Shown here: one piece after another, positions 6,821 to 28,798 of the stretch | Layout: each line of letters opens with the position of its first letter | Numbering within the stretch: position 1 is the first letter of the stretch | Assembly: GCF_003269065.1 (NCBI RefSeq) | Contig: NZ_QLTA01000007.1 | Coordinates: forward strand, 62,001-126,000 | Length of the DNA stretch: 64,000 bases | Origin: Paracidovorax anthurii | GTDB taxonomy: Bacteria > Pseudomonadota > Gammaproteobacteria > Burkholderiales > Burkholderiaceae_C | Reading direction: 5' to 3' | Translations under genes and position numbers: made by a program | Notes under the pieces: generated by a model | Databases searched by the model: none | What the model saw: only the letters and a program-made list of their open reading frames with translations | What the model was told of the DNA's origin: nothing

Positions 6821-6862
6821 CGCGCGGCCACGCGCACGGGGCGGCCCCCGCTGCCCCTGCTT

Positions 6863-6882
6863 TTGCTATGTTTTAAATAGCA
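6863..6882. repeat. bare TTGCTAT hairpin, possible terminator
   Basis: TTGCTAT and ATAGCA flank a short T/A-rich loop in the gap between the SPFH and DUF4178 genes. It matches the stem of the ATGTCGCC/TTGCTAT repeat but lacks the left half. Confidence 0.5.
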
Positions 6883-6930
6883 TCCTGTCGAATGGAATCA
6901 GCGACAGGAGGCCGAAAACACCGATCAAGA

Positions 6931-8454
6931 ATGGCCGACCCCCACCTCCAGCGCCACTACCGCGCGCCCTGCCCGGGCTGCGGCGCGCCGGTCGAATTCC
7001 GCAGCGCGCAGTCCACGCACGCCGTCTGCCCCTATTGCCAGAGCACCGTGGTGCGCAGCGGCGAGGTGCTCACGCGCGTGGGCAAGATGGCCGAGGTCTT
7101 CGACGACCACAGCCCGCTGCAGCTCATGGCGAGCGGCCGGGTGTTGCTGGACGCGCGCGAGCAGTCCTTCACGCTGATCGGCCGGCTGCAGTACCAGGCC
7201 GAGACGGGCACCTGGGCCGAGTGGAACGCCATCCTGGAGGACGGCAGCACCGCCACGCTGGGCGAGGACAACGGCGCCTACGTGTTCACGCGCCCCATGG
7301 ACCCGGGCCGCGAGCTGCCGCCGCCCGAGCGCTTCCGCGTGGGGACCACCACGGCCGTGAGCGGCAAGCCCTACAGCGTGGCGGCGAACGTGCAGGCGCA
7401 CCTCGTCTCCGCGCAGGGCGAGCTGCCCCGGCTGCCGCCGCTGGGCCAGCCATTCGCCGTGGTGGAGCTGCGCAGCGAGCAGGGGGATGTCCTCTCCTTC
7501 GACTACGGCCAGACGCCCCCGCGCGTCGAGCGCGGCCGCACGGTGCGGCTCGAAGACCTGCGCATGCAGGGCCTGAAGAATGAGTCCGCCAAGGAAGAAA
7601 AGGCGCGCCAGTTCAACTGCCCGCACTGCGGCGCGCCGGTGGCGGTGAAGTTCGACACCACCCGCAGCCTCACCTGCCCCTCGTGCGCGAGCCTCATCGA
7701 CGTCTCGGGCGGCATCGGCGGCGAGCTGCGCCACGCCGTGCAGGACGAGCCCGTGCAGCCGCTCATTCCCCTGGGCACCACCGGGCAGCTGGAGGGCGGG
7801 GTCTGGCAGGTGGTGGGTTTCCAGCACCGCATGGGCAGCGAGCCGGGCGACGACGAGAGCTTCGGCTGGGACGAATACCTGCTCTACAACCGCCAGCGCG
7901 GCTTCGCCTTCCTCGTGGACGCGACCGACGGCTGGAGCCTCGTGCGGCCCACCACGGGCGCGCCCAAGCTCTCGGCGAACGGGCAGGGCGCCACCTACCT
8001 GGGCAGCACCTACCGGCTCGACTCGCAGTACCGCGCCGAGACCACCTACGTGCTGGGCGAGTTCTACTGGCCCGTGGCGCGCGGGCAGGTCACCCAGAAC
8101 CGCGACTTCAGCGGCGCGGGCGGCAGGGGCCGGCTGTCGATGGAGCAGACCCCGCGCGAGATCACCTGGTCGGCCGGCAACCTGCTGGACAGCGCCCTGG
8201 TGGCCAAGGCGTTCAAGCTCGACGGCCAGAAGGACCTCTTCCGCCGCGACGACGCCAGCCCGCTCGCGAGCGCGGGCAGCGTGGGCTGCGGCACGGTGAT
8301 CATCATCGCCGTGGTGCTGGTCCTGCTCCTGCTGCTGTTCTCGCGGGGCTGCAGCTCGTCGTGCGATCCGCAGCGCGAGAACTGCACCTCGTCGAGCTAC
8401 CGTTCCTCGGGCGGGTCGTTCGGCGGCTGGTCCAGCGGGGGCGGGCACAAGTAG
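6931..8454 (+). CDS. DUF4178 protein with two zinc-ribbon-like segments and C-terminal membrane anchor
   Basis: 507 residues from ATG 6931 (MADPHLQRHYRAPCPGCG). An in-frame ATG at 6892 has no ribosome site and overlaps the preceding repeat spacer. Two CxxC pairs form a zinc ribbon at the N-terminus (CPGCG...CPYC) and again mid-protein (CPHCG...CPSC), each followed by a DUF4178 beta domain. Near the C-terminus is one strong membrane helix (VIIIAVVLVLLLLLF) and then a Cys/Ser/Gly-rich tail. DUF4178 proteins recur with SPFH, DUF350 and spermidine-synthase-like genes. The biochemical role is unknown. Confidence 0.8.
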   Translation: MADPHLQRHYRAPCPGCGAPVEFRSAQSTHAVCPYCQSTVVRSGEVLTRVGKMAEVFDDHSPLQLMASGRVLLDAREQSFTLIGRLQYQAETGTWAEWNAILEDGSTATLGEDNGAYVFTRPMDPGRELPPPERFRVGTTTAVSGKPYSVAANVQAHLVSAQGELPRLPPLGQPFAVVELRSEQGDVLSFDYGQTPPRVERGRTVRLEDLRMQGLKNESAKEEKARQFNCPHCGAPVAVKFDTTRSLTCPSCASLIDVSGGIGGELRHAVQDEPVQPLIPLGTTGQLEGGVWQVVGFQHRMGSEPGDDESFGWDEYLLYNRQRGFAFLVDATDGWSLVRPTTGAPKLSANGQGATYLGSTYRLDSQYRAETTYVLGEFYWPVARGQVTQNRDFSGAGGRGRLSMEQTPREITWSAGNLLDSALVAKAFKLDGQKDLFRRDDASPLASAGSVGCGTVIIIAVVLVLLLLLFSRGCSSSCDPQRENCTSSSYRSSGGSFGGWSSGGGHK

Positions 8455-15759: not shown

Positions 15760-16032
15760 TCCGCTGATCCGCCGGGCCCGTGAGTCTGCACTGGATCGAT
15801 GGTGCATGGGACGGATGCGCCAGGTGCCGGCGCGCGCGACCGATTCCAGCCGAACGCATCGGCGATGCCATGGCGCCGGGTTGCGGGGTTGCGCCTCTTT
15901 GGCGAATCAGGAACGCTGATGGCAGCCATCAGGCGCCGCTACTTCACTGCAGCCAAGCCTCCTCCTAACATCGGGACGGATTGGCATCGGCCGGATGGAC
16001 CGGCAATGGCCGCTGACGGGGGACTCTCGCGG

Positions 16033-16359
16033 ATGATCTACGAACTGAAACGCTATACGCCGCATCCAGGGAAGGGCGAAGCGCTGCGCGCGCGTTTCAT
16101 GGCCCATACCCTGCCTGTCTTTGCCCGCCTGGGCATGGATGTCGTGGCGGTGTTCGCCCCCAGGCCGCCGCTGGAAGAACTCGTCTATATCCTGGCTTTC
16201 GAGGACGAGGACCGCCGCACGGCGGCCTGGGCCGCGTTCGGCTCCGACAGCGAGTGGCGCGAGATCAAGGCGCGGACCGAGCAGGACGGCCCGCTGCTCG
16301 CGCAGCAGCAGACCGAACTGCTCCACGCGCTGCTCGCTCCCGCCCTGCCGCTTCGCTGA
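16033..16359 (+). CDS. NIPSNAP-family protein
   Basis: 108 residues from ATG 16033 (MIYELKRYTPHPGKGEALRA); the frame is open upstream to 15799 and an ATG at 16006 is an alternative. The dimeric alpha/beta-barrel NIPSNAP pattern is clear: YxxxxYxxxPGK, then VAVFAPRPPLEELVYILAFED, then AWAAFGSDSEW. Small NIPSNAP proteins often accompany catabolic clusters and may bind reactive or aromatic intermediates. It is convergent, 5 bp from the alpha/beta hydrolase, at the left edge of the catabolic cluster. Confidence 0.8.
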   Translation: MIYELKRYTPHPGKGEALRARFMAHTLPVFARLGMDVVAVFAPRPPLEELVYILAFEDEDRRTAAWAAFGSDSEWREIKARTEQDGPLLAQQQTELLHALLAPALPLR

Positions 16360-16364
16360 AGGCC

Positions 16365-17183
16365 TCAGGCGGCGGCGCGGGCCAGGTGGTGCAGCAGGAC
16401 CGTGTCGAACGCCTCGCGCCGGTCGATATTGGGCAAATGCCCGGCGCCCGGAATGACCTCCAGCGCCGCGCCGCGAATCCGCGCCGCGAGTTCGGCCATG
16501 GCGGCGGGCAGCACGCCGTCCTTCTCGCCAACGACCAGCGTCGTCGGCAGCGCAATGCCATCCACGCCTGCCAGATAGTCGAGCGACTGGATGGCGCGGG
16601 CGCACGCCACGAAGCCGTCCACCGTGGTATCCGCGGCCACGGCCCGCAGGCGTGCCGCCGTGTCCGGATGGGCTTGCAGGAAGGCGGTGCCGAACCAGCG
16701 CTCCAGCGTGGGCATCGCCAGGGCGGCGCAGCCTTCGGCACGGGCGGTGGCGATGCGCGCGTCCCAGGGTGCGGCCACCTCCGGCGGCGCATCGGCGCGG
16801 GCATCGCACAGGCAGAGGCTCGCCAGGCGGTCGGGGTGCTGGAGGGCCAGGCCGAAGCCGCTCATCCCGCCGAGCGACAAGCCGACGTAGTGCACCCGGG
16901 AGATGTCCAGCGCATCGAGCACCGCGACCGTGTCGGCCACCAGGGTGTCCATGCGGGCGTGCCCGCCGGTGCAGCGCGAGGCGCCGTGGCCGCGGGTATC
17001 GGCGCACACGACCCGCCAGCCCCGTGCGGCGAGCAGATCGGCCTGCGCCGTCCACATGGCGCTGCTCGAAAGGATGGAGTGCGCAAAGAAGACCACCGGC
17101 GCCTGCGGGTCTCCCTGGAGGTGAACCGCCAGGTCCGCATCCGGACGCGAAACGGTGCGGCTGCTGCGAGTGCTGTCGTGCAT
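16365..17183 (-). CDS. alpha/beta hydrolase, 3-oxoadipate enol-lactonase-like
   Basis: 272 residues from ATG 17183 with GGGAG five bases upstream; an in-frame ATG six codons earlier is less likely. The oxyanion region is VVFFAHSILSSSAMW, the nucleophile elbow is GLSLGGMSG (Ser), then the acid in VVGEKDGVLP (Asp) and the His in IPGAGHLPNID. This resembles PcaD-type enol-lactonases and MhpC-like hydrolases. It is the last gene of the minus-strand unit that starts with the ferredoxins and is likely co-transcribed, with 14 bp to the reductase. It may open a lactone or ester made by the pathway; the actual substrate is unknown. Confidence 0.8.
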   Translation of the reverse strand: MHDSTRSSRTVSRPDADLAVHLQGDPQAPVVFFAHSILSSSAMWTAQADLLAARGWRVVCADTRGHGASRCTGGHARMDTLVADTVAVLDALDISRVHYVGLSLGGMSGFGLALQHPDRLASLCLCDARADAPPEVAAPWDARIATARAEGCAALAMPTLERWFGTAFLQAHPDTAARLRAVAADTTVDGFVACARAIQSLDYLAGVDGIALPTTLVVGEKDGVLPAAMAELAARIRGAALEVIPGAGHLPNIDRREAFDTVLLHHLARAAA

Positions 17184-17197
17184 GGGGGCTCCCTGTT

Positions 17198-17962
17198 TCA
17201 ATAGCCTGCGAAAAATTCGATCACGACCTGCTCCGGCGGCACCTCGCAGGCATCCAGGCAGTCCTGCATCGCGGCCACCATGGCGGTGGGGCCGACCACG
17301 TAGTAGCGGCAGGCGCGCCAGTCGGCGACCTCCTGGCGGATGGTGTCGGCGTCTATCAGGCCGGAGCGCGGCGTGCCGCCGGCGGCGGCCGGGGCGGCGC
17401 CCTGCTCCGACAGGACATGCACCACGCGCAAGCCGGGCAGGGCCGCCGCCATGGCGTCGATCTCGGCGCTCCAGGCGGCCAGGGCGCTGCTGCGGTTTCC
17501 GTACAGGAGCGTGACCGGCGGCACGGCCTCGCCGCCCTCCGCGCGGTGCTGCAGGTGGCGCAGCATGCTGTAGAAAGGCGTGATGCCGATGCCCCCGGCG
17601 ATCATCACCAGCGGCTGCAGTCCGTCGGCGGGCAGGACGAAGTCGCCCATCGGGGGGCTCAAGTGGAGGGGCGCGCCCTGTTCACCGACGGCGCATGCGG
17701 CCAGATGGCGCTTGAAGGCGGTGTCCCGCATGCGCATCGCCACCAGCAGCCCGGCATCGTGCGGGGCGCTGGCGATGGACAGCATGCGTTCGCCGTCGTC
17801 CGAGCCGTCCTCCGGGGCGATGAAGCCGGGCAGCTGGATGCTGACGTACTGGCCGGCCTCGAAGTCGAAGCCGGCCGGCCGCTCGATGGCGAAGGCCATG
17901 GTGTCCTGGGCGATGGGGGTGCGGGCGAGCACGCGCACGGTGAAGTTTTCGGGATCGGTCAT
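17198..17962 (-). CDS. ferredoxin-NAD(P)+ reductase-type flavoprotein
   Basis: 254 residues from ATG 17962. The FAD-binding barrel (about 1-110) has the RxxS motif ERMLSIASAP, and the NAD(P) domain (about 115-254) begins MIAGGIGITPFYSMLRHLQ and includes YYVVGPTAMVAAMQDCL. There is no fused 2Fe-2S domain, so it should reduce a separate ferredoxin. Two ferredoxin genes lie upstream in the same unit. It is 38 bp downstream of the ThDP enzyme. Inferred role: it passes electrons from NAD(P)H to the ferredoxins and on to the cluster's oxygen-dependent enzyme. Confidence 0.85.
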   Translation of the reverse strand: MTDPENFTVRVLARTPIAQDTMAFAIERPAGFDFEAGQYVSIQLPGFIAPEDGSDDGERMLSIASAPHDAGLLVAMRMRDTAFKRHLAACAVGEQGAPLHLSPPMGDFVLPADGLQPLVMIAGGIGITPFYSMLRHLQHRAEGGEAVPPVTLLYGNRSSALAAWSAEIDAMAAALPGLRVVHVLSEQGAAPAAAGGTPRSGLIDADTIRQEVADWRACRYYVVGPTAMVAAMQDCLDACEVPPEQVVIEFFAGY

Positions 17963-18000
17963 GGGCAGTGTCTCCAAGGCAGGGCAATGGGAAAGGCGCT

Positions 18001-19680
18001 TCAGGCCTTGCGTTGCTCGCGCACCGAATCGACGGTGGCGCGGGGTGACAACGCGTCGGGGCTGACGCGCAGCTCGATCAGGGCCGGCCGGCCGGCGGCC
18101 TGGGCCCGCCGCCAGGCCGGTGCGAAGTCTTCGGTGCGTTCGACGACTTCCCCGTGGGCGCCATAGGCGCGCGCCAGTTCGGCGAAGTCGGGATTGACCA
18201 GCGACGTGCCCACCACCCGTCCCGGGTAATGGCGCTCCTGGTGCATGCGGATGCTGCCGTACATGCCGTTGTTGACCACCACCACGATGACGTGGGCGCC
18301 GTACTGGGCCGCGGTGGCGAGTTCCTGGCCGGTCATCAGGAAACAGCCGTCGCCCGCGAAGCAGACCACCGTGCGTTCGGGGTGCGCCAGCTTGGCCGCG
18401 ATGGCCGCCGGCAGCCCGTAGCCCATGGTGCCGCTGCAGGGCGCCAGCTGGGTCCGCAGGCCGCGATACTGGTAGAAACGCTGCACCCAGAGCGTGTAGT
18501 TGCCGGCGCCGTTGGTGAGCACGCTGTCGTGCGGAAGGCTGTCGCGCAGCGCCGCCATGATCGCGCCGAAGTCCACCGGTCCGGGCATGGGCGTGGGCTG
18601 CAGGTTGTCGCGGTAGTCGGCGCACGCCGAGGCGGTCCAGCCGCTCCAGGCGGGCGCCGCCGCGGGTGCCGGCAGCGCGGCGGCGGCGGCGGCGAAGCCG
18701 GCCGGGCTGGAGTTCATCGGCAGGTCGGCGTGGTAGACCTTGCCGAGTTCCTGCGGATCGGGGTGCACGTGCACGAAACGCTGGCGCGGCCGCGGCAGCC
18801 GCACCAGCGTATAGCCCTGGGTGGTGGTCTCTCCCAGGCGAGCGCCCACGCTGATGAGCAGATCGGCATCGCGCACGCGCTGGGCGAGGCGCGGGTCCAT
18901 GCCCAGGCCGGCCTCGCCGGCGTAGAGCGGATGCCGGTTGTCGAAGAGGTCCTGGCGGCGGAAGGCGCAGGCCACCGGCAGCTGGAAATGCTCGGCGAAG
19001 GCCGCGATGTCGCTGCAGGCCTGGGCCGTCCAGCCGCCGCCGCCCAGCAGCAGCAGGGGCTGGCGGGCCCCGCGCAGCAGGGCGGCCAGCGCCTGCATGT
19101 CGGCTTCGGGCGGGCAGGGCTGGCTGCGCCGGAAAGGCGGGCAGTCGGCGACGGCCGCGGCCTGCTCCAGCATGTCTTCCGGCAGGGCCAGCACCACGGG
19201 GCCGGGCCGGCCCGAGGTGGCGACGTGGAAGGCGCGGCTGACGTATTCCGGAATGCGCGCCGGGTCCTCGATCTGATCGACCCACTTGGCCATGCCGCCG
19301 AACATCTGCCGGAAATCGACCTCCTGCCAGGCTTCGCGGCCCCGGGCGTCGCGCGCCACCTGGCCGATGAACAGGATCATGGGGGTGGCGTCCTGGCTGG
19401 CGGTGTGCACGCCGATGCTGGCATTGGTGGCGCCGGGCCCGCGGGTGACGAAGCAGATGCCGGGCTGGCCGGTGAGCTTGCCGTGCGCCTCGGCCATGAA
19501 GGCGCCGCCGCCCTCCTGCCGGCAGACCACCAGCTCGATCTGGTCGCGGGCGTCGTACAGGGCATCGAGCACCGCGAGGAAGCTCTCGCCGGGCACGCAG
19601 AAGGCGCGCTCCACCCCCTGCATCCTCAGTGCATCCACCAGTATCTGGCCGCCCACGCGGCTGGGAATCGTCATGTCCAT
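18001..19680 (-). CDS. thiamine-diphosphate-dependent enzyme, acetolactate synthase/benzoylformate decarboxylase type
   Basis: 559 residues from ATG 19680 (MDMTIPSRVGGQ) with AAGGA upstream. The domain order is PYR (about 10-175; the cofactor-activating Glu in VPGESFLAVLDAL), the central domain (about 190-330), and PP (about 370-545) with the ThDP/Mg motif GDGCFLMTGQ...VNNGMYGS. It lacks the FAD-binding pattern expected of true acetolactate synthase; that is my reading, not an alignment. Placed between a hydroxy-acid oxidase and, across the cluster, an aldehyde dehydrogenase, the logical reaction is decarboxylation of a 2-keto acid to an aldehyde, as MdlC does with benzoylformate. Carboligation is the alternative. 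Confidence 0.85.
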   Translation of the reverse strand: MDMTIPSRVGGQILVDALRMQGVERAFCVPGESFLAVLDALYDARDQIELVVCRQEGGGAFMAEAHGKLTGQPGICFVTRGPGATNASIGVHTASQDATPMILFIGQVARDARGREAWQEVDFRQMFGGMAKWVDQIEDPARIPEYVSRAFHVATSGRPGPVVLALPEDMLEQAAAVADCPPFRRSQPCPPEADMQALAALLRGARQPLLLLGGGGWTAQACSDIAAFAEHFQLPVACAFRRQDLFDNRHPLYAGEAGLGMDPRLAQRVRDADLLISVGARLGETTTQGYTLVRLPRPRQRFVHVHPDPQELGKVYHADLPMNSSPAGFAAAAAALPAPAAAPAWSGWTASACADYRDNLQPTPMPGPVDFGAIMAALRDSLPHDSVLTNGAGNYTLWVQRFYQYRGLRTQLAPCSGTMGYGLPAAIAAKLAHPERTVVCFAGDGCFLMTGQELATAAQYGAHVIVVVVNNGMYGSIRMHQERHYPGRVVGTSLVNPDFAELARAYGAHGEVVERTEDFAPAWRRAQAAGRPALIELRVSPDALSPRATVDSVREQRKA

Positions 19681-19691
19681 CGGGCTTTCCT

Positions 19692-20864
19692 TCAAGGGCG
19701 TTCGGAAGCCGGCAGCACGGTGGCGGCGCGGCACAGGTAATCGGGGCCCAGCGCAGCCACGTCCGGACAGCCGAGCAAGGCCAGGTCGGTGTCCACCTCG
19801 CGCCGCAGCAGCGCCAGGGCGTGCGCGGCGCCGGCCTGGCCGGCTGCCGCCAGGCCGTACATCACCGGGCGGCCCACCAGCACGGCGCTCGCGCCCAGGG
19901 CCAGCGCCTTGAGCACATCGGTGCCGCGGCGGATGCCGCCGTCGAGGATCAGCGTCAGGCCGGGCGCGGCCGCGGCCATCGCCGGCAAGGCGTCCAGCGA
20001 TGCCAGCGTGCCGTCGAGCTGGCGCCCGCCGTGGTTGGACACCACGACGCCGTCCACCCCCACGGCCATCGCCGTCGCCGCGTCGCCGGCACGCAGCAGG
20101 CCCTTGAGCAGCAGCCGGCCCCGCCACCGTTCGCGGATCCAGCGGATCTCGTTCCAGGTCATGGCGGCGCGGCCGGCGCGGTGGTCGCCCTTGGCCGCCT
20201 GGATGATGGGACCGCCCCGCTCCGCGGTGAAATTCTCGAAGTGCGGGATGCCCTGGCGCACCAGCGTGCGGGCGAAGGTGGCGGCCAGCCAGTGCGGCCG
20301 CATCAGCCCGCCCCAGAGCAGTTGGGCGCTGGGCCGCAAGGGAATGGTGAAGCCGTTGCGCAGTTCGTTCTCGCGGACCGAGGCGATGGGCACGTCCACC
20401 GTCACGACCAGCGTGCCGATGCCGGCCGCGGCCACCCGGTCCAGCAAGGGGCCGATGACTTCGGTGCGGGCCGGCAGGTAGGCCTGGTACCAGGTGTCGG
20501 GATTGGCTTCGGAGACGCGCTCCAGCGGGGTGGTGGATGCCGCGCTCAGCACATAAGGCTGGCCGGCGTCGCGTGCCGCGCCGGCCAGGGCGATGTCGCC
20601 ATCGAAATGGCACAGCGCGGCGACTCCCATGGGCGCGATGCCCACCGGCGCCTCGTAGCGCTTGCCGAACAGGGTGACGGCTTGCGACCGTCGCGAGACG
20701 TCCACCAGCGGGCGCGGCACGAAGCGCCAGCCGTCGAAGGCGGCCCGGTTGGCGGCGACGGTGCGCCGGTCCTCGCTGCCGCCGCTGACGTAGCCGAAGA
20801 TGCTGGCGGGCAGGCGGCGGCGTGCGGCCTGCTCCAGGTCGTGCAGGGACAAGGCTTGTTTCAT
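19692..20864 (-). CDS. FMN-dependent alpha-hydroxy-acid oxidase/dehydrogenase
   Basis: 390 residues from ATG 20864 with AGGA upstream. A TIM-barrel flavoprotein of the lactate/mandelate/glycolate oxidase family. Visible features are FGYVSGGSEDRRTVAANR near the N-terminus, the catalytic His in VVVSNHGGRQLDG, and the FMN-phosphate site LILDGGIRRGTDVLKALALGA. It oxidises an (S)-2-hydroxy acid to a 2-keto acid. The next gene (11 bp on) is the ThDP enzyme, the same order of chemistry as MdlB-MdlC in mandelate degradation. The substrate side chain cannot be inferred. Confidence 0.88.
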   Translation of the reverse strand: MKQALSLHDLEQAARRRLPASIFGYVSGGSEDRRTVAANRAAFDGWRFVPRPLVDVSRRSQAVTLFGKRYEAPVGIAPMGVAALCHFDGDIALAGAARDAGQPYVLSAASTTPLERVSEANPDTWYQAYLPARTEVIGPLLDRVAAAGIGTLVVTVDVPIASVRENELRNGFTIPLRPSAQLLWGGLMRPHWLAATFARTLVRQGIPHFENFTAERGGPIIQAAKGDHRAGRAAMTWNEIRWIRERWRGRLLLKGLLRAGDAATAMAVGVDGVVVSNHGGRQLDGTLASLDALPAMAAAAPGLTLILDGGIRRGTDVLKALALGASAVLVGRPVMYGLAAAGQAGAAHALALLRREVDTDLALLGCPDVAALGPDYLCRAATVLPASERP

Positions 20865-20901
20865 CGTGGGATTCCTGGGGCGCGGCTGCGGGGCGCCCGG
20901 G

Positions 20902-21180
20902 CTACCAGGAGACGCTGACGTCGCCGTTGACGAAGGTCTGGCAGGCCATGCGGAAGCCTTGCCCCACCTCGTCGTCGGAGAGGTGTTTGCGCTCCTTGGG
21001 TTTGACCGCGTCGGCATGCTCCAGGCCGGACTCGATGCGGCACTTGCAGGTGCCGCACACGCCGCCGCCGCACTTGAACGGGATGCCGCCCTGGAAGCGC
21101 AGCGAAACCCGCAGCAGATTGCTGTTCTCCGGCACCTGCGCCACCTTGCCGGCGTTGCTCAGGAAGGTGATGGTGATCAT
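20902..21180 (-). CDS. 2Fe-2S ferredoxin
   Basis: 92 residues. The cluster ligands are visible: CGGGVCGTCKC (C-x4-C-x2-C) and a distal C in FRMACQTF. The compact plant-type ferredoxin fold starts MITITFLSNAGKV. Its ATG overlaps the stop of the upstream 103-residue gene by four bases, so the two are translationally coupled. It is one of two ferredoxins in this unit and a likely electron carrier between the FNR-type reductase and the diiron oxidase. It ends 37 bp before the hydroxy-acid oxidase. Confidence 0.88.
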   Translation of the reverse strand: MITITFLSNAGKVAQVPENSNLLRVSLRFQGGIPFKCGGGVCGTCKCRIESGLEHADAVKPKERKHLSDDEVGQGFRMACQTFVNGDVSVSW

Positions 21181-21488
21181 CCGAGCTCCACCCGCGCCAG
21201 GCGCACATCCAGCTTGCCGAAGGCGACCAGCTGGTGGAGTTCATGGCGGGCCTGCTCCAGGCTGTCGCAGCGCGGCAGGAATTTGGAGGGCACGAGGTTG
21301 CGGACATGCGGCGGCTGCTCTTCCACCAGCGCGACGCGCACCGGCCGCAGGAGCTCGGCGATGACGAAGCGGGCGCGCCGCTTGCCGTAGAAGAGGTAGT
21401 CGTATTGCTCGACGGGCACGAGGCCCTCGCACAGTTCGGTATGGAACTGCCCGTCCTTGTGGGTGAGGATGACGTATTCGTTGGCCAT
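21177..21488 (-). CDS. unknown 103-residue protein between two ferredoxins
   Basis: 103 residues (MANEYVILTHKDGQFHTELC). It has an alternating beta/alpha pattern, no signal peptide, and two separated cysteines with no metal motif. It overlaps the downstream ferredoxin by 4 bp and lies 25 bp after the upstream one. Being locked between two electron carriers suggests a small subunit or coupling/effector protein for the redox enzyme. I recognise no domain. Confidence 0.75.
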   Translation of the reverse strand: MANEYVILTHKDGQFHTELCEGLVPVEQYDYLFYGKRRARFVIAELLRPVRVALVEEQPPHVRNLVPSKFLPRCDSLEQARHELHQLVAFGKLDVRLARVELG

Positions 21489-21513
21489 GTCGTTCTTCTA
21501 TGGGTCGCCGGGC

Positions 21514-21819
21514 TCAGGCCGCGGCCTTTTCGTCCTGGCAGAGTTCGATGTCGTGGTGGATCCAGAGCTGGCAGGCCAGGCGGAAACCGGCGTCCAGGCG
21601 ATCGCCCAGCTGTTTCTTTTCCTTCCAGTTGGGTTCGGCCAGATGCTCCGCGCCCTGGAGCACCTTGCACATGCACTTGGAGCACTTGCCCATGCCGCAG
21701 CCGTAGTCCAGGTGCGGGAAGGGGAACTGCTTGATGCCGGCCCGCACCACCAGGTTGGTGTTGGGCCGCACCTCGCCTTCGAAGCACTGGCCGGCTTTTC
21801 TGATCACAACTTTGGGCAT
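21514..21819 (-). CDS. 2Fe-2S ferredoxin, first gene of the minus-strand unit
   Basis: 101 residues from ATG 21819 (MPKVVIRKAGQCFEGEV); an upstream in-frame ATG at 21843 is possible. The ligands are CGMGKCSKC (C-x4-C-x2-C) plus C in LACQLW, with an unusual extra Cys right after (CMC). It is distinct in sequence from the second ferredoxin (20902), so the two carriers may serve different partners or be donor and regulator. The promoter region is shared with the divergent diiron oxidase gene. Confidence 0.85.
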   Translation of the reverse strand: MPKVVIRKAGQCFEGEVRPNTNLVVRAGIKQFPFPHLDYGCGMGKCSKCMCKVLQGAEHLAEPNWKEKKQLGDRLDAGFRLACQLWIHHDIELCQDEKAAA

Positions 21820-21951
21820 AGGCACCTGTTCCGGGGTCGGCATGGCTCGAAGGGCCGCGGCCCTCGTCCACTCGTGGTTGCAGCAATGGCTCCGATGGTC
21901 GAAGCCTGCCCCGGGACACGTCAAACAACATCAGGAGCGGCGATGGGTTCG

Positions 21952-21988
21952 ATCAATAAGGTTGATGGACATTGTTGACTCCCATCAA
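21952..21988. promoter_or_regulatory. divergent operator, nested inverted repeats (LysR-type)
   Basis: ATCAA-N5-TTGAT (21952-21966) overlaps TTGATGG-N13-CCATCAA (21962-21968 and 21982-21988). It lies between the ferredoxin unit (start 21819) and the diiron oxidase gene (start 22083). Overlapping recognition and activation sites of this size are typical for LysR regulators; the cluster has its own LysR gene at 27714. An AT-rich stretch follows (21989-22001). Confidence 0.65.
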
Positions 21989-22082
21989 GAAAAAATATTA
22001 TTTGGCCTCCCCCGCAGCCGGGGCCGCACCGGGCAGCGGGTTGCCCGCACGGACCCCATCCCACCCAGAAGAAGGACATGCC

Positions 22083-22817
22083 ATGACCGCATTGATGAAC
22101 AAGGAAGATTTCCGCAACGCGCTCGAGGAAACCGTGCGCGGCAAGAGCGCCAACAAGTCGCCCTTCAGCGTCGCCTGGGCCGCCGGCAAGCTCTCGCGCA
22201 CGCACCTGGCGCGCTGGGCCGAGAACCATTACCACTACGTCGGCCCCTTCGCCGATTACCTGGGCTTCATCTATTCCCGCACCCCGCACAGCCTGATCGA
22301 CGTGAAGGATTTCATGCTGTCCAACATGTACGAGGAAGAGATCGGGGGCGACCGCCACACCGATCTGCTCATCCGTTTCGCCGAAGCCTGCGGCTCCTCG
22401 CGCGAACGCGTCACCAATCCCGACCACATGCTGCCTTCGACCCGCGGCCTGCAGAGCTGGTGCTATTCCATGTCCATGCGCGAGCATCCGGTCGTCGCCG
22501 TCGCCGGAATCGTGGTGGGCCTGGAGTCGCAGGTGCCCTCCATCTATCGCAAGCAGGCCCCCACGCTGCGGGATGTCTACGGCTTCAGCGATGAGGAGGT
22601 GGAGTTCTTCGACCTGCACATCGTCTCGGACGAGATCCACGGCGAGCGCGGCTACCAGATCGTGCTCGAGCATGCCGATACGCCCGAGCTGCAGCGGGCC
22701 TGCCTGAAGGCCTGCGAGGTCGGCGCCCAGATGCGCCTGCTCTACACCGCCGAGCTTTTCCGCGAGTACGTGGAAAAGGATCTGGCGACGAGCCAGGAGC
22801 CCGTGCTGGCGGATTGA
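22083..22817 (+). CDS. heme-oxygenase-like diiron oxidase (HDO; TenA/PqqC/CADD superfamily)
   Basis: 244 residues from ATG 22083 with AAGGA upstream. The seven-helix fold keeps a full set of diiron ligands: E85-x6-H92 in MYEEEIGGDRH, E148 in VVGLESQVP, and H179-x3-D183-x2-H186 in HIVSDEIH. The spacing nearly matches CADD (E81, H88, E142, H174, D178, H181), which I cite from memory. HDO enzymes use O2 for N-oxygenation, C-C cleavage or decarboxylation. This one is divergent from two ferredoxins and shares their operator, so it probably receives electrons from them. It is followed by a repeat and then the enolase-superfamily gene. It is not PqqC, because no pqq genes are present. Confidence 0.85.
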   Translation: MTALMNKEDFRNALEETVRGKSANKSPFSVAWAAGKLSRTHLARWAENHYHYVGPFADYLGFIYSRTPHSLIDVKDFMLSNMYEEEIGGDRHTDLLIRFAEACGSSRERVTNPDHMLPSTRGLQSWCYSMSMREHPVVAVAGIVVGLESQVPSIYRKQAPTLRDVYGFSDEEVEFFDLHIVSDEIHGERGYQIVLEHADTPELQRACLKACEVGAQMRLLYTAELFREYVEKDLATSQEPVLAD

Positions 22818-22922
22818 TACGGCTTCGCCATCGAAAAGATCACGGCGTTGCTGCGCCGTGCCGTGCGGCAAGCACCGCCCGCAGCTTCGCGCCTTGTTCT
22901 CTCTTGGATGGCCAACCCGCAT
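22817..22922. repeat. 106-bp stop-codon-abutting palindromic repeat, copy 1
   Basis: The ends are ATACGGCTTCGCCATC and GATGGCCAACCCGCAT, near-inverted copies of each other. The first A is the last base of the TGA stop of the diiron oxidase gene. Copies 2 and 3 are at 31189 and 50355. This is the most diverged copy in the middle. Confidence 0.85.
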
Positions 22923-23005
22923 GGGCGGCGGCACCACCGCGCGCCGGGACCGCGCTGGCGGCCCACGATGAAACCGGGATTCACAGAAATAAGGAGACAA
23001 ATCCC

Positions 23006-24178
23006 ATGAGCGGACGCTCCCCGGCCGCGATGCCTGATTTCGCCATCGCCGAAGTCAGGGCCTGGCCCATTTCCTTTCCCGTGCCCGCCGCCCACAGCGT
23101 GCGGCTGGGCGTAGGCCTCGCACTGAAGCGCGATGCGGTGGTGGTGCGGGTGCGCACCGCCGGCGGCCTGGTCGGCTGGGGCGAATCCCACCACGGCCGG
23201 GCCCACAGCAGCATCGCCCATTTCATCAACCATGCCCTGCGCCCACTGGTCGAGGGCATGGACGCCACCGATGTCCACGGCGTCTGGCAGCGCATCTACC
23301 GGGCGCAGCTGGCGGCCATGGGGACCGGTGCGGCCTGCGTGCTGGCGATGAGCGGCATCGATACGGCGCTGTGGGACATCCGCGCCAAGGCGGTGGGCTG
23401 GCCGCTGTACCGCCTGCTCGGCGGCGCCTCCCGGCCGCTGCGCGCTTACGCGGGCGGCGTGGCCCTGGGATGGCAGGAGCCCGATCAACTGGTCGAGGAG
23501 GCCGCGGCCCATGTGAAGGCGGGCTACAAGGCGGTCAAGCTGCGCGTGGGCGACAGCGTGGAGCGCGACATCGCCCGGGTGCGGGCGGTGCGCCAGGCCT
23601 TCGGCGACGGCCTGGCCATCCTCGTCGATGCCAACTGCGCCTATGCGCTGGACGACGCGCGGCGCGCCATGCCGCAGCTCGACGAGCTGGGCGTGGGCTG
23701 GCTGGAGGAACCCTTCCCCGCCCATGACTACCGCAGCTACGAGGTGGCCCGCGGTTTCGGCCGCGTCGCGTTCGCGGCCGGAGAGAACCACTACACCCGC
23801 TTCGAGTTCAGCCGCCTGGTGGACGACCGGGTGGTCTCCATCCTGCAGCCCGACCTGTCCAAGACCGGCGGCATCAGCGAGACCCTGCGCATCGCCGCGC
23901 TGGCCTCGGCCTACAAGATTCCGGTGCACCCGCATTCGTCCATGACCGGGCTCAACATGGCGGCCACGCTGCATGTGCTGGCGGCGATCGACGGCGACGG
24001 CTATTTCGAGGCGGACGTATCGCGCGGCAACCTGTTCCGCGACGCGCTGGTGCCCACGCCCTTCGCGGTGGACGCCGAAGGCCATGTCTGGCCGTCCGAG
24101 GCGCCGGGCATCGGCGTGGAGGTCGATGAGGCCTTCCTCGACGCGCATCCGGCCATCGAAGGCCCGGCCTACGCCTAG
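23006..24178 (+). CDS. enolase-superfamily enzyme, mandelate racemase/muconate lactonizing type
   Basis: 390 residues from ATG 23006 with AAGGAG upstream. It has a capping domain (about 10-130) and a beta/alpha barrel. Metal ligands are D208 (ILVDANC), E234 (WLEEPF) and E260 (AGENH). D283 and H310 (QPDLSKTGG, HPHSS) would form the His-Asp dyad of the mandelate racemase subgroup. The base motif reads K178-L-R180 where racemases carry K-x-K, so one general base is replaced by Arg. That favours one-sided proton abstraction (dehydration) over racemisation. Next to a Bug protein, aldehyde dehydrogenase and diiron oxidase, it likely processes the imported hydroxy acid. Confidence 0.87.
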   Translation: MSGRSPAAMPDFAIAEVRAWPISFPVPAAHSVRLGVGLALKRDAVVVRVRTAGGLVGWGESHHGRAHSSIAHFINHALRPLVEGMDATDVHGVWQRIYRAQLAAMGTGAACVLAMSGIDTALWDIRAKAVGWPLYRLLGGASRPLRAYAGGVALGWQEPDQLVEEAAAHVKAGYKAVKLRVGDSVERDIARVRAVRQAFGDGLAILVDANCAYALDDARRAMPQLDELGVGWLEEPFPAHDYRSYEVARGFGRVAFAAGENHYTRFEFSRLVDDRVVSILQPDLSKTGGISETLRIAALASAYKIPVHPHSSMTGLNMAATLHVLAAIDGDGYFEADVSRGNLFRDALVPTPFAVDAEGHVWPSEAPGIGVEVDEAFLDAHPAIEGPAYA

Positions 24179-24208
24179 GGCGTGTGACGCACCCAGAAGA
24201 GGACCCGC

Positions 24209-25183
24209 ATGCACACCATGAATCGCCGCGCGGCCGCCTCCGCCGTGGCCGCCCTGTCCCTGCCCTGCGCCTGGTCGCAGGAGGCCGCGCAGTATCCGGA
24301 CAAGCCGCTGCGCATCGTCGTGCCGTACCCGCCGGGCGGCTTCAACGACACCCTGGGCCGGCTGCTCGCCACCCATCTCGCCAATGCATGGAAGCAACCC
24401 GCCATGGTGGACAACAGGCCCGGCGGAGGCACCACCATCGGCACGCAGGCCGTGGCCACGGCGCGTGCCGACGGACTCACCCTGCTCGTGGCCCAGTTTC
24501 CCTTCGGCGCCAATCCCTGGCTCTACAAGCTGCCTTATGACACCGTTCGCGCCTTCGCGCCGGTCATGCTGGCGGGCCGCGCGCCCATGGTGCTGGTGGC
24601 CCATGCCGCCGCGCCGTACCGCAACGCCGCCGATCTGGTGAAGGCCGCCAGGGAGCGGCCCGGCGCCATCCCTTACGGCTCGTCCGGGCCGGGGTCCTCC
24701 AACCATCTCTTCATGGTGCTGTTCGAGAGCCTGTCCGGCATCCGCATGAACCAGGTGCCCTACAAGGGCAGCACGCCCATGCTGACCGATCTGGCCGGAG
24801 GCCAGATCGACGTGGCGGTGGACCTGCTGCCCCAGGCCCTGCCCTTCATCCAGTCCGGCAAGGTGCGGCCCCTGGCCATCGCCAGCGACAAGCGCTCGCC
24901 GCTGATGCCCGACATCCCCACCGCCGCCGAGGCCGGCGTGCCGGGCTTCGAGGGCTCCTCCTGGCACGGCATCGTCGCGCCGGCCGGCACGCCCGAGCCG
25001 GTCATCGCCAAGCTGAACGCCGAACTCAACCGTTTCCTGCAGTTGCCCGAGGCGAGGAAGACCTTCGCCGCGCAAGGCGTGGTGCCCGATGGCGGCACGC
25101 CCGCAGACTTCCAGCGCTTCATCGAAAGCCAGCTGGCACTCTGGAAACGGGTCGTGCAGCAGAACCACATCACCGCAGGATGA
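24209..25183 (+). CDS. Bug-family periplasmic binding protein (tripartite tricarboxylate transport, TctC-like)
   Basis: 324 residues with an N-terminal secretion signal (RRAAASAVAALSLPCAWSQ). The core is typical of Bug: YPDKPLRIVVPYPPGG, then GGGTTIG, ANPWLYKLPY, and LTDLAGGQIDVAVD. Bug proteins capture carboxylates in the periplasm. No TctA/TctB membrane genes are in the window, as is common for the many orphan Bug genes of Burkholderiales. It overlaps the aldehyde dehydrogenase by 4 bp, so they are translationally coupled. Confidence 0.88.
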   Translation: MHTMNRRAAASAVAALSLPCAWSQEAAQYPDKPLRIVVPYPPGGFNDTLGRLLATHLANAWKQPAMVDNRPGGGTTIGTQAVATARADGLTLLVAQFPFGANPWLYKLPYDTVRAFAPVMLAGRAPMVLVAHAAAPYRNAADLVKAARERPGAIPYGSSGPGSSNHLFMVLFESLSGIRMNQVPYKGSTPMLTDLAGGQIDVAVDLLPQALPFIQSGKVRPLAIASDKRSPLMPDIPTAAEAGVPGFEGSSWHGIVAPAGTPEPVIAKLNAELNRFLQLPEARKTFAAQGVVPDGGTPADFQRFIESQLALWKRVVQQNHITAG

Positions 25184-26631
25184 ACGACATGGACACGACA
25201 CGGATGGAAGCACCGAACCTGATCGGCGGCCGCTGGCAGCCCGCGGCGGATGGCACCTGGAGCCCGTCCCGGGACCCCGCCAGCGGCGAGGCGCTGGGCC
25301 GCTACGCGTCCTCGGCCCTGGCCGACGGCGAAGCCGCGATCGACGCCGCCCGCGCGGCCTTCGAGTCCCCGGCCTGGTCGCAGAATCCGCGCCTGCGGCA
25401 GAGGGTCATGCTGCGCTGGGCCGACCGGCTGGAGGCCCGGGCCGCCGCGCTGGCCGAGCTGCTGACCCGCGAGAACGGCAAGGTGCTGGCCCAGTCCCAC
25501 GGCGAACTGGCCGGCGCCGTCTCCGAGATCCGCTACTACGCCGGGCTGGCGCGCTACCTGCCCGGCCACGTCTTCGAGGTCGAACCCGGCAGCTTCTCCA
25601 CCCTCCTGAAAGAGCCGGCCGGCGTGGCGGGCATCATCGTGCCCTGGAATGCGCCGGTGGTGCTGCTGATCCGATCGCTCACGCCCGCGCTGGCGGCGGG
25701 ATGCACCGCCGTGGTCAAGCCCGCGCCCCAGACCGCGCTCATCACGGCGGCCGTCATCGCCGAGCTGCATGCGGTGGCCGAGCTGCCGCCCGGCGTGGTC
25801 AACCTGGTGAGCGAGGACGGCCACGCGGTGGCCCAGCTGCTCGCCGAATCGCCCCGCGTGGACGTGCTGAGCTTCACGGGCTCCAACGGCACCGGCCAGC
25901 GCATCATGGCCGCGGCCGCGCCCACCATGAAGAAGCTGTCGCTTGAGCTGGGCGGCAAGTCCTCCTGCCTGGTGTTCGAGGATGCCGACGTGGCGCGCGT
26001 GGCGCCGGCCCTGGCGGCTGCCGCCACCATCATCAGCGGCCAGCAATGCACGGCCGCCCGGCGCGTCCTGGTGCACGCGAGCCGCTACGAGGCCATGCGC
26101 GAGGCGCTGACCGCCGCGCTCGCGGGCCTCCGGCTCGCGCCCGGCCTGGAAGCCGGCGCGCAGATCGGCCCCCTGATCGACGCCGCCGCCGCGGACGCCG
26201 TGGACCGCCGCATCGCCGAGGCGGCGGACGCCTGCGACCAGGTCCTGCTGCGCGGCAGCCGCCAGGGCAACTTCGTCAGCCCCACGCTGGTGGCGCAGCG
26301 CGACACCTCGGCCTTCTTCGTGCAGGAGGAGATCTTCGGCCCCCTGGTGGTGCTGGAGCGCTTCGACGACGAAAAGGAGGCCGTGGCCCGCGCCAACCAT
26401 TCCGAGTTCGGCCTGTCCGCCAGCGTCTGGACCCACGATGGCGCGCGCGCCATGCGCGTGGCCCGGGCGCTGCGCAACGGCACGGTCTGGATCAACGACC
26501 ACAACAAGCTCTTCGCCGAAGCGGAGACCGGCGGCTACCGCCGCAGCGGCCTCGGCCGCCTGCACGGCTACGACGCGCTGATCGACTTCCAGGAGATCAA
26601 GCACATCTACCAGCACGCCGGCGTGGTTTGA
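25180..26631 (+). CDS. NAD(P)+-dependent aldehyde dehydrogenase
   Basis: 483 residues. Family motifs: GIIVPWNAPVVLLIRSLTPA (cofactor site), the general-base Glu in LELGGKSS, the catalytic Cys in SGQQCTAARR, and EEIFGPLVV. The ATG overlaps the stop of the Bug gene (ATGA). In the proposed chain it oxidises the aldehyde released by the ThDP decarboxylase to an acid, as benzaldehyde dehydrogenase does in mandelate degradation. The substrate is not predictable from sequence alone. Confidence 0.9.
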   Translation: MNDMDTTRMEAPNLIGGRWQPAADGTWSPSRDPASGEALGRYASSALADGEAAIDAARAAFESPAWSQNPRLRQRVMLRWADRLEARAAALAELLTRENGKVLAQSHGELAGAVSEIRYYAGLARYLPGHVFEVEPGSFSTLLKEPAGVAGIIVPWNAPVVLLIRSLTPALAAGCTAVVKPAPQTALITAAVIAELHAVAELPPGVVNLVSEDGHAVAQLLAESPRVDVLSFTGSNGTGQRIMAAAAPTMKKLSLELGGKSSCLVFEDADVARVAPALAAAATIISGQQCTAARRVLVHASRYEAMREALTAALAGLRLAPGLEAGAQIGPLIDAAAADAVDRRIAEAADACDQVLLRGSRQGNFVSPTLVAQRDTSAFFVQEEIFGPLVVLERFDDEKEAVARANHSEFGLSASVWTHDGARAMRVARALRNGTVWINDHNKLFAEAETGGYRRSGLGRLHGYDALIDFQEIKHIYQHAGVV

Positions 26632-26667
26632 GAGCCGACGCATTCCAATCGACAAAGGAGACACAGC

Positions 26668-27645
26668 ATGCAACTCAGCCGCAGAGATTTTTCCGCCGCA
26701 CTGGTCGCGCCCCTGGCCGGCGCGCTCATGCCCGCCTTCGCGCAGAACGGCTATCCCGGACGCACGGTGCGCATCATCGTGCCGTACCCGGCCGGCGGCT
26801 TCAACGACACCCTGGCCCGGGTGGTCGGCAAGAAGCTCCAGGACAGCCTGGGCCAGCCCTTCATCGCCGACAACAAGCCCGGCGGCGGCACCATCATCGG
26901 GACCGAGGCGGGCGTCAAGTCCCCGCCCGACGGCTACACGCTCTTCATCGCCAGCTTTCCGACGGTGGTCAACCAGTTCCTCTACAAGAACCTGCCGTAC
27001 AGCGTGCAGCGCGACGTCGCGCCGATCATCCTGGCCGGCTATGCGCCCAACCTCCTGGTGGTGCGCAGCGACTCGCCCTACAGGACGGTCAAGGACCTGG
27101 TCGCGGCGGCCAAGGCCGCGCCCGACCGGCTCAACTATGCCTCGGCCGGCAGCGGCACCTCGCTGCACCTGGCGATGGAATACTTCAAGAGCGTCACCGG
27201 CACCCGTATCGCCCACATCCCCTACAAGGGCAGCGCCCCCATGATCACCGACCTGCTCGGCGGCCAGGTGGACGTGATGTTCGACAACCTGCCCAACGCG
27301 ATGCCCCATGTCCAGTCCGGACGCATGCGTGCGCTGGGCGTGACGTCGCTCAAGCGGCTGGCCGCGCAGCCCGACATTCCCACCATTGCCGAACAGGGCT
27401 ACCCCGGCTTCGAGATCTCGCCGTGGTACGGCATCGCGGCGCCCGCCGGCACGCCGCGCGCCATTCTCGTGAAGCTCAATGCCGAAGTCGCCCGCATTCT
27501 CACCCAGCCCGATGTCAAGGCCATCTTCGCGGCCCAGGGCGTGGAAATCGCGGGCGGGTCGGTGGAGGACTTCGACCGGTACATCAAGGCGCAGAGCGCG
27601 CGCTGGGAGCCGATCGTCCGCAATGCCAACATCGCCCTCGACTGA
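26668..27645 (+). CDS. second Bug-family periplasmic binding protein
   Basis: 325 residues with signal peptide (FSAALVAPLAGALMPAFAQ) and the Bug hallmarks GYPGRTVRIIVPYPAGGFND, GGGTIIGTEAG, VNQFLYKNLPY and ITDLLGGQVDVMFD. It is clearly related to the first Bug protein (24209), sharing the FNDTL motif after the phosphate-like loop, so the pair may be a local duplication that handles two related ligands. It follows the aldehyde dehydrogenase by 36 bp. Confidence 0.88.
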   Translation: MQLSRRDFSAALVAPLAGALMPAFAQNGYPGRTVRIIVPYPAGGFNDTLARVVGKKLQDSLGQPFIADNKPGGGTIIGTEAGVKSPPDGYTLFIASFPTVVNQFLYKNLPYSVQRDVAPIILAGYAPNLLVVRSDSPYRTVKDLVAAAKAAPDRLNYASAGSGTSLHLAMEYFKSVTGTRIAHIPYKGSAPMITDLLGGQVDVMFDNLPNAMPHVQSGRMRALGVTSLKRLAAQPDIPTIAEQGYPGFEISPWYGIAAPAGTPRAILVKLNAEVARILTQPDVKAIFAAQGVEIAGGSVEDFDRYIKAQSARWEPIVRNANIALD

Positions 27646-27713
27646 AGGCCGGCCGGTTCGCGCCGGCCTCTACAATCCCGCGCGGCCCACGATCATCGGG
27701 CCGCCACGCAGCG

Positions 27714-28625
27714 ATGGACTTCCGCCAGATTCAGTATTTCCTCGCGCTGTTCGAGGACGGCTCCGTGACCCAGGCCGCACGGCGGCTCGGCATCGTGCAG
27801 CCCACCCTGAGCATGCAGATCGCGCGGCTGGAGGAGGAGCTGGGCCAGCAGCTGTTCGAGCGCAAGCGCCAGGGCATGTCGCCCACGGCCGCGGGCCGGC
27901 ACATGTACCGCCTGTTCTCGCCCATCGCCCGCGACTTCACGTCGGCCCGCGCCGAACTGCTGCAGCGCAGCGAGGCCGTCACGGGCCGGGTTTCGCTGGG
28001 CCTGCTGTCCTCGCTGGCTGAAAGCGTGCTGCCGGACGCGCTGTCGCGCTTCAGCGATGCCTATCCGCACGTGGAAGTCATGATCGCCGTGGGCTACAGC
28101 ACCAGCCTGATCGACTGGGTGAGCAACGGCCAGGTCGATGCGGCGATCATCAACCTGCCCCGCGCCAGGCTGTCGCTGGCGGTCGAGCCGCTGGCCGAGG
28201 AAGACATGCTGCTGGTGACGGGCAGCGCCTGCGGCCCGCTGCTCCCGCCCAGCATCCGGCTGGCGCGGCTGCCCGATCTGGAGCTCGACCTGATCCTGCC
28301 CACGCGGCGCCACGGCTTGCGCGGCGTGCTCGATACCGCCGCGCAGCAGGAGGGCATCACGCTCGCGCCCAAATACGAGGTCGATGTGCTGGGCACCATC
28401 GTGCGCCTGGTGGAGAGCACGCGTTTCGCCACCGTCCTGCCGCGGATCGTGGTCCAGCGAGCCGTCAACGAGGGAACGCTGCGGGTCTGCCCCATCCAGT
28501 CCCCCCGCATCGTGCGGCAGGTCGTCCGGGTCAGCGATCCCCAACGGCCCCTGGGCACCGCAGCGCATGCGCTGATCGACGCCGTGGCCGATGAGATCCG
28601 GCGCGTGCTCGGCGTCGCTGCCTGA
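27714..28625 (+). CDS. LysR-family regulator of the catabolic cluster
   Basis: 303 residues from ATG 27714. The N-terminal winged helix (about 1-60) is MDFRQIQYFLALFEDGSVTQ-type and includes RRLGIVQPTLSMQIARLEEE; the periplasmic-binding-like effector domain (about 90-295) follows. It resembles CbbR/nitrogen-assimilation-type LysRs with the FRQIQYFLA start. It is the last gene of the plus-strand run and the only regulator in the cluster, so it is the likely binder of the divergent operator at 21952-21988 and the sensor of the pathway substrate. Confidence 0.88.
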   Translation: MDFRQIQYFLALFEDGSVTQAARRLGIVQPTLSMQIARLEEELGQQLFERKRQGMSPTAAGRHMYRLFSPIARDFTSARAELLQRSEAVTGRVSLGLLSSLAESVLPDALSRFSDAYPHVEVMIAVGYSTSLIDWVSNGQVDAAIINLPRARLSLAVEPLAEEDMLLVTGSACGPLLPPSIRLARLPDLELDLILPTRRHGLRGVLDTAAQQEGITLAPKYEVDVLGTIVRLVESTRFATVLPRIVVQRAVNEGTLRVCPIQSPRIVRQVVRVSDPQRPLGTAAHALIDAVADEIRRVLGVAA

Positions 28626-28652: not shown

Positions 28653-28698
28653 AATGTCGCCGTATCCATTGAAAAGTTTGCTATCGATTGCATAGCAA
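28653..28698. repeat. ATGTCGCC/TTGCTAT hairpin repeat, copy B
   Basis: ATGTCGCCGTA, then TTGCTAT (28678-28684), a 7-base loop and ATAGCAA (28692-28698). It lies between the LysR gene and the FAD oxidoreductase. Confidence 0.8.
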
Positions 28699-28798
28699 TC
28701 GCAGTCCGAGCCATCGGACCCTCGGGGAGCCGCCGCCGCGCGCTGGCGCTACAGTCTTCGATCCTCCCCCCTCCTGCGCGCGCCCGCGCGTCCCTGCG

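Follow-up and report, generated by a model that had tools for sequence, protein, structure and literature searches.

A conserved quartet of a heme-oxygenase-like diiron oxidase, two ferredoxins and a 103-residue orphan protein as a candidate multicomponent oxygenase in Paracidovorax anthurii

The 64,000-nt stretch of Paracidovorax anthurii contig NZ_QLTA01000007.1 that was analysed here (the window, whose positions are used for numbering) contains a gene module at 15799–28625 that includes a heme-oxygenase-like diiron oxidase/oxygenase (HDO). The module is composed of two divergent operons that flank an intergenic region (21820–22082). The left operon, on the minus strand, contains, in order, the genes for a [2Fe-2S] ferredoxin (Fd2), an orphan protein of 103 residues, a plant-type [2Fe-2S] ferredoxin (Fd1), a flavin mononucleotide (FMN)-dependent alpha-hydroxy-acid oxidase/dehydrogenase, a thiamine diphosphate (ThDP)-dependent enzyme, a ferredoxin-NAD(P)H reductase and a hydrolase. 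The right operon, on the plus strand, contains the genes for HDO, an enolase-superfamily (MR/MLE) protein, a tripartite tricarboxylate-type binding protein (Bug1), an aldehyde dehydrogenase (ALDH), a second binding protein (Bug2) and a LysR-type regulator. The reading frames of Fd1 and the 103-residue protein overlap by 4 bp (21177–21180), as do those of Bug1 and ALDH (25180–25183). The core of the module is formed by HDO (22083–22817, plus strand; PF14518, 3.3e-38), Fd2 (21514–21819, minus strand; PF00111, 1.9e-08; alternative start at 21843), the 103-residue protein (21177–21488, minus strand; an open frame with no Pfam family) and Fd1 (20902–21180, minus strand; PF00111, 2.1e-13), and these four linked genes are likely to encode a new oxygen-using enzyme of several parts that breaks down a compound. 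All genes named in the first-pass annotation of this DNA are present at or near the positions where it had placed them (with start codons refined here), and each of them except the 103-residue protein has a Pfam match. Its description of the genes as standing in chemical order does not hold, as the operons are two and divergent, and the one with the racemase-like gene is not the one with the FMN and ThDP genes.

The conserved unit is the quartet of HDO, Fd2, the 103-residue protein and Fd1, which is found across beta- and alphaproteobacteria. A scan of 84,980 species genomes with HDO yielded 491 relatives, from which the best 80 loci (72–91% identity) were kept. Matches to the window genes in these loci were sought by tblastn and counted above identity limits that we set ourselves. 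Counts of neighbouring genes refer to the 65 of these loci that are longer than 20 kb (full-flank loci); L022 ends at a contig edge. Fd1, the 103-residue protein and Fd2 were each found in 64 of the 65 full-flank loci. In the exception, L025, a search for ferredoxins located an Fd2 relative (65% identity) ∼64 kb from HDO and a weaker ferredoxin match 0.4 kb further on. The order Fd2, 103-residue protein, Fd1, on one strand and with gaps of less than 250 bp, is kept in 77 of the 78 loci that contain all three genes (L054 is rearranged), and no more than 700 bp separate the trio from HDO in 52 of these 78 loci. The linkage of Fd1 and Fd2 ties a redox partner genetically to HDO, a feature of dedicated HDO-redox-partner pairs of the MboA/MboB kind.

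The same association was observed in whole genomes. At the family level (299 genomes), HDO was found in eight genomes (E ≤ 1e-20) and the 103-residue protein in nine (E ≤ 0.001), namely the same eight and G137, in which a 10.8-kb contig has the gene for the 103-residue protein at its start and also carries both ferredoxins and further genes of the module, HDO being absent from it. The Fisher p values for co-occurrence are 6e-15 (family level) and 1e-9, both calculated with the relatedness of the genomes ignored. At the phylum level (398 genomes), HDO at ≥75% identity and the 103-residue protein occur in the same four genomes, and in plasmid records both are found in the same six. HDO, the ferredoxins and the 103-residue protein are associated far beyond chance. 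The phylogenetic trees of HDO, the 103-residue protein, Fd1 and Fd2 (the first rooted on an outgroup, the other three midpoint-rooted) share a five-member clade of LysR-type loci that comprises the window, L010, L011 and L012 from Variovorax, and L055 from Burkholderia, with support values of 0.90, 0.78, 0.89 and 0.94, respectively, as expected if the four genes travel together. The conserved co-occurrence that the first-pass annotation had proposed to look for was thus found, in gene order as well as in family and phylum genomes. HDO genes without ferredoxins, which it had named as evidence against its idea, do exist at ≤45% identity; at 72–91% identity both ferredoxins are kept in all full-flank loci except the one described above.

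The HDO protein also matches PF03070 (TENA-PQQC, 7.2e-09). Its putative metal ligands, E85, H92, E148, H179, D183 and H186, line up with those of CADD, form a set of three histidines and three carboxylates (3H/3C), and are conserved at the 97% level (81 sequences). The assignment uses the ligand numbering of CADD, and the choice among E84–E86 rests on the CADD alignment. The nearest solved relatives are the p-aminobenzoate synthases 9pj4 (2.4e-20) and 1rcw (2.5e-15). In the available text of PMC11965152, CADD is described as sacrificing Tyr27, with Lys152 as the amine donor. The corresponding columns in HDO hold Ser29 and Gln158, both kept at the 97% level, and HDO scores below both the CADD-family model TIGR04305 (99 bits, cut-off 200) and the PqqC model TIGR02111 (45.7 bits, cut-off 240). 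Because the six ligands are kept and the tyrosine and lysine are absent, HDO is by sequence a canonical 3H/3C diiron-type HDO and not a self-sacrificing p-aminobenzoate synthase. Two HDO genes are present in a single locus in L066, L080 and L161.

Both ferredoxins retain four cysteines conserved at the 97% level: Cys37, Cys42, Cys45 and Cys80 in Fd1 (78 sequences), and Cys50, Cys55, Cys58 and Cys92 in Fd2 (79 sequences; numbering from the longer start). Among the models scored, Fd1 reached 42.9 bits with BenC and 39.5 bits with NqrF, and only 16 bits with YfaE (cut-off 75). For the 103-residue protein of the window, no Pfam, NCBIfam or PDB family was found, the best PDB match having an E value of 0.51. 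When Pfam was run on 58 members of its family, nine Pfam families appeared, each in one or two members, the best being Phage_Bbp19 (2/58, 6.8e-07). The alignment of these members, which includes the 57 of 78 relatives left after the removal of near-copies, has 4 columns that are invariant and a further 16 that are nearly so. The protein is most likely a docking or gating (effector or coupling) partner for HDO and ferredoxin, and we regard it as a candidate for this role.

An operator-like element is conserved in the divergent region (21952–21988; strand not applicable). It consists of ATCAA-N5-TTGAT (21952–21966), with a spacing typical of LysR boxes, and an inverted repeat that overlaps it in the window, TTGATGG-N13-CCATCAA (21962–21988). 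The former is kept as ATCA(A/G)-N5-TTGAT in Variovorax L010–L012 and has decayed in Burkholderia L055. We consider this element a candidate LysR operator; a sigma-70-like promoter was looked for in the intergenic region and none was found. The GC content is 63–65% across the quartet (21000–23000), compared with 69–76% elsewhere in the 12–32 kb region. A lateral origin was considered on this basis and dropped, since the GC content at third codon positions (GC3) over the quartet, 0.86–0.94, is close to that of the neighbouring genes despite the dip; with GC3 nearly normal, the dip may stem from protein composition. The patchy distribution of the HDO module in the genus (1 of 17 genomes) suggests transfer.

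The other genes of the left operon, all on the minus strand, begin downstream of Fd1 with the FMN enzyme (19692–20864; PF01070, 2.2e-125), which is mandelate-dehydrogenase-like, and the ThDP enzyme (18001–19680), an acetolactate-synthase-like protein of the PRK08199 subfamily (NF006052, 905 bits, cut-off 539). They are followed by the reductase (17198–17962; PF00175, 5.6e-16), of which only the NAD-binding domain is matched and which is without a ferredoxin domain of its own. The operon ends with a PcaD-like alpha/beta hydrolase (16365–17183; PF00561, 4.5e-27; alternative TTG start at 17201) that scores 200.7 bits with the PcaD model TIGR02427, below the cut-off of 255.85. In the right operon, on the plus strand, HDO is followed by the enolase-superfamily protein, which is dehydratase- or epimerase-like (23006–24178; PF13378, 5.9e-62), Bug1 (24209–25183; PF03401, 3.9e-66), ALDH (25180–26631; PF00171, 1.9e-138), Bug2 (26668–27645; PF03401, 2e-81) and the LysR-type regulator (27714–28625, start refined; PF00126 and PF03466). 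The window-type reductase and the LysR gene are kept in the four LysR-type relatives, the hydrolase and ALDH in L010–L012 and L055, and Bug1 in L010 and L011. At the left flank of the cluster, a gene for a NIPSNAP-domain protein (16033–16359, plus strand, start codon refined; PF07978, 3.4e-13) is a doubtful member, as it was found in 1 of the 65 full-flank relatives. A flavin amine-oxidase-like protein is encoded directly downstream of the LysR gene (28688–30514). Elsewhere in the window, a 611-residue open frame on the minus strand (41039–42874) has no Pfam match at 1e-8 and may be a false frame.

The first-pass annotation had read the locus as a mandelate-type catabolic core joined to HDO, and this core was not borne out. 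With identity limits of 45%, no match to the FMN, ThDP or enolase-superfamily gene was found beside any of the 80 HDO relatives (65 full-flank); below the limits, the ThDP enzyme has matches of 31% in L011 and L012, and the enolase-superfamily protein one of 28% in L054. In Variovorax L010, Fd1 comes immediately after the reductase, and Bug1 immediately after HDO. More generally, reductase and Fd1 are adjacent in the nearest relatives, and HDO directly adjoins Bug in L010 and L011, and ALDH in L012. In the window, the ThDP-FMN pair is located between the reductase and Fd1, and the enolase-superfamily gene between HDO and Bug1. Because they are wedged between pairs that are adjacent in L010, the three genes are probably a local addition to both divergent operons. 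Their presence in both argues for a working connection in the window genome and not for a mandelate core. The first reading is thus corrected: the quartet is the conserved unit, and the mandelate-like genes would be added locally.

The three added enzymes were compared with solved structures, and the FMN enzyme alone has its Mdl counterpart as closest relative. Its nearest solved structure is the (S)-mandelate dehydrogenase 6bfg (305 bits), with the NHGGRQ motif and the R and Y residues around the site aligned; by sequence it is a relative of this enzyme. As a marker of the cluster it was rejected, since the family is common, with relatives at ≤57% identity in 39 other genomes of the 299 (E ≤ 1e-100). 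The ThDP enzyme is closer to acetohydroxyacid/acetolactate synthases (239 bits) than to a probable benzoylformate decarboxylase (147 bits), and in the solved-structure comparison it does not group as a benzoylformate-decarboxylase-type enzyme. For the enolase-superfamily protein, the nearest solved relative is 3bjs, named by superfamily only; the two share a K-L-R motif, compared with the KxK motif of classical mandelate racemase. The ALDH of the window had no solved-structure match at the limit used.

Two types of cluster surround the HDO relatives. In most of them (GntR type), the neighbours are HbpS/DUF336 (59 of the 65 full-flank loci), a GntR regulator (58), an ALDH of another type (54), a 512-residue membrane protein (51), a ferredoxin-fused reductase (50), a TauE exporter (44), an ornithine-cyclodeaminase-family protein (29) and an amidase (19), with the Pfam names taken from one member of each family. 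Loci L014, L018 and L020, of Cupriavidus necator, belong to this type. The LysR type, to which the window belongs, has its own ALDH, reductase and hydrolase (4/65 each). The two ALDH types are distant from each other, and the pairing of one HDO with two such ALDHs and with two types of reductase suggests that both enzymes were recruited twice, separately, for the same need. According to the available text of PMC8153426, the formaldehyde sensor EfgA belongs to the HbpS/DUF336 family, members of which occur in pathways that produce aldehydes; as an indication only, these neighbours hint at an aldehyde as the product. The 512-residue membrane protein (6150–7688, minus strand, in L013) has no Pfam, NCBIfam or PDB match and is a candidate for a new transporter family. 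A single substrate was sought from selected annotated genes across the relatives and the attempt was abandoned, as amidase (19/65), GGT family (7), isochorismatase (4), alpha/beta hydrolase (4), TauE (44) and ornithine-cyclodeaminase family (29) did not converge; sulfonate, amide and amino-acid substrates are unproved ideas from these genes.

The next HDO clade, at ∼45% identity, was represented by 10 loci (L127, L150–L157 and L161; the outgroup set of 13 loci without L158–L160, which belong to the main clade). HbpS and GntR are present in 10/10 of these loci, and in 9/10 a Rieske-family gene is divergent to HDO (called by Pfam on the 272-residue L127 member, the other members being joined by blastp), so [2Fe-2S] neighbours recur. 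Our guess is that this clade is alphaproteobacterial. One genus carries it often: among the 76 genomes of the order, 32 match at 1e-25, and three of these have main-clade copies.

Based on the linkage of the quartet, its whole-genome co-occurrence, the six kept 3H/3C ligands, and the reductases and ALDHs of two types nearby, we favour, with moderate confidence, a reading of the cluster as a multicomponent, ferredoxin-fed HDO used in catabolism, the latter being indicated by the transporters and the GntR/LysR regulators. In the electron chain that we infer, electrons would pass from NAD(P)H through the flavin reductase (17198–17962) and Fd1 and/or Fd2 to the diiron site of HDO, which would activate O2 for reaction with a small organic substrate, the hydrolase and the Bug proteins helping to release this substrate or bring it into the cell. 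The 103-residue protein would act as a dedicated partner in docking or gating between HDO and ferredoxin. The product of HDO may be an aldehyde, or an alcohol en route to one, and ALDH would oxidise the aldehyde. In the window genome, the FMN oxidase and ThDP enzyme recruited to the left operon and the enolase-superfamily enzyme recruited to the right would extend the route via a hydroxy acid, an oxo acid and an aldehyde, in this presumed order. The regulated promoter of the module would offer a route to finding the substrate. The notion of an undescribed oxygen-dependent route in which HDO works with dedicated ferredoxins and the 103-residue protein, already voiced in the first-pass annotation, is supported by the conserved quartet; no description of the quartet or module was among the results listed by searches of an open-access library, preprints and most subscription papers lying outside it. 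A word search of the available text of the mercaptosuccinate paper PMC5373536 found no word beginning with 'ferredoxin', 'oxygenase' or 'redox enzyme'. More tentatively, the system could possibly be the first multicomponent HDO, with a reductase, two ferredoxins and a cofactor-free 103-residue effector, resembling methane or phenol monooxygenases in its parts though not in its fold, and catalysing the entry step of an aerobic catabolic pathway that is undescribed and widespread in proteobacteria; if so, a catabolic HDO would bring the component logic of multicomponent monooxygenases to the heme-oxygenase fold.

Several observations weigh against this multicomponent catabolic reading. In 26 of the 78 loci, the trio is more than 700 bp from HDO, and so is not always in one operon with it. 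Seven listed Acetobacteraceae loci (three of them full-flank) contain the quartet, yet neither a reductase nor an ALDH of the types searched for; these enzymes are therefore not obligatory neighbours. Six further genomes at the phylum level have weaker HDO relatives (27–45%) and no 103-residue protein, and neither the trio ferredoxins nor the 103-residue protein was found near HDO in the 10 loci of the ∼45% clade. The window HDO has no HbpS gene next to it, as both HbpS relatives of this genome (32% identity) are on other contigs, and the Pfam matches of the 58 members of the 103-residue family include no MmoB/DmpM-type or other known effector family. Finally, the ferredoxins could serve the maintenance of the cofactor rather than turnover. 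In this alternative, which we consider unlikely, they and the 103-residue protein would maintain or load a labile diiron centre instead of feeding electrons in each turnover, just as YfaE maintains the diiron centre of ribonucleotide reductase. It is consistent with the weak match of Fd1 to the YfaE model, with the existence of quartets that have no reductase of the types searched for nearby, and with the lability of HDO diiron sites in many cases, reported in the available text of PMC13108848. However, two different ferredoxins and a reductase in most full-flank loci better fit turnover, and Fd1 scores higher with the electron-transfer proteins BenC and NqrF.

The remaining alternatives are much less probable. 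An MdlABCD-like pathway to which HDO was added, as initially proposed, would account for the FMN enzyme, for the ThDP enzyme and ALDH, which would follow the same chemistry, and for the position of the three added genes inside the two operons; we give it little credence, given their absence above the limits beside all 80 relatives, the acetolactate-synthase-like character of the ThDP enzyme and the K-L-R motif shared with 3bjs. About as implausible, or slightly more so, is the idea that HDO is biosynthetic, either as a divergent p-aminobenzoate synthase or as an enzyme of natural-product formation, and is located beside catabolic genes by chance. The nearest solved relatives are indeed p-aminobenzoate synthases, and HDOs are mainly natural-product enzymes according to the available text of the review PMC13108848, but the replacement of the sacrificial tyrosine and the lysine, the low CADD-model score, and neighbours that are transporters, hydrolases, ALDH and catabolic-type regulators all point away from it. 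Least credible of all is heme degradation by HDO as a ferredoxin-dependent heme oxygenase working with the heme-binding protein HbpS. The Pfam names Haem_oxygenas_2 and HbpS-like would fit, as would the ferredoxin dependence of plant heme oxygenase (available text of PMC7948506); yet HDO has the full 3H/3C ligand set, no heme uptake genes are among the annotated neighbours, and the window HDO lacks an adjacent HbpS gene.

When compared with known systems, the window cluster resembles MdlA-B-C-D in combining an FMN hydroxy-acid dehydrogenase, a ThDP enzyme and an aldehyde dehydrogenase, and differs from it in the affiliations of the enzymes compared with solved structures, described above, and in that these genes are not conserved with HDO. 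CADD and NePabS, the nearest solved relatives, have the same ligand positions in the alignment, but their sacrificial tyrosine and lysine are absent from HDO, and the available text on them mentions no ferredoxin partner. The ferritin-like diiron multicomponent monooxygenases, such as soluble methane monooxygenase, have analogous parts (reductase, ferredoxin, diiron oxygenase and a small cofactor-free protein), whereas their oxygenase fold is unrelated and the 103-residue protein matches none of the effector families in Pfam. About a dozen HDOs have been functionally validated and are treated mainly as biosynthetic, and those studied to date need no protein effector, as far as the available text of a 2026 review states (PMC13108848). 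A close counterpart, and a precedent for the favoured reading, is the mangotoxin acetylenase MboA, described in the available text of PMC13185094, which, like the window module, combines a 3H/3C diiron HDO with a dedicated redox partner, the flavin-[2Fe-2S] reductase MboB; MboB is needed for the second oxidation, chemical reductants could not replace it for the full reaction, and the two are described as possibly the first HDO and dedicated redox partner to have been characterised. Unlike the module, MboA serves biosynthesis: its substrate is a tripeptide, it needs no MboB for its first two-electron product, and it has a single reductase as its partner (PMC13185094, same text). The window module, known here from its genes, has two free ferredoxins, a separate reductase, an orphan protein and a catabolic setting. 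If the favoured reading holds, it would be a second kind of dedicated HDO-redox-partner system, with more parts than MboA/MboB.

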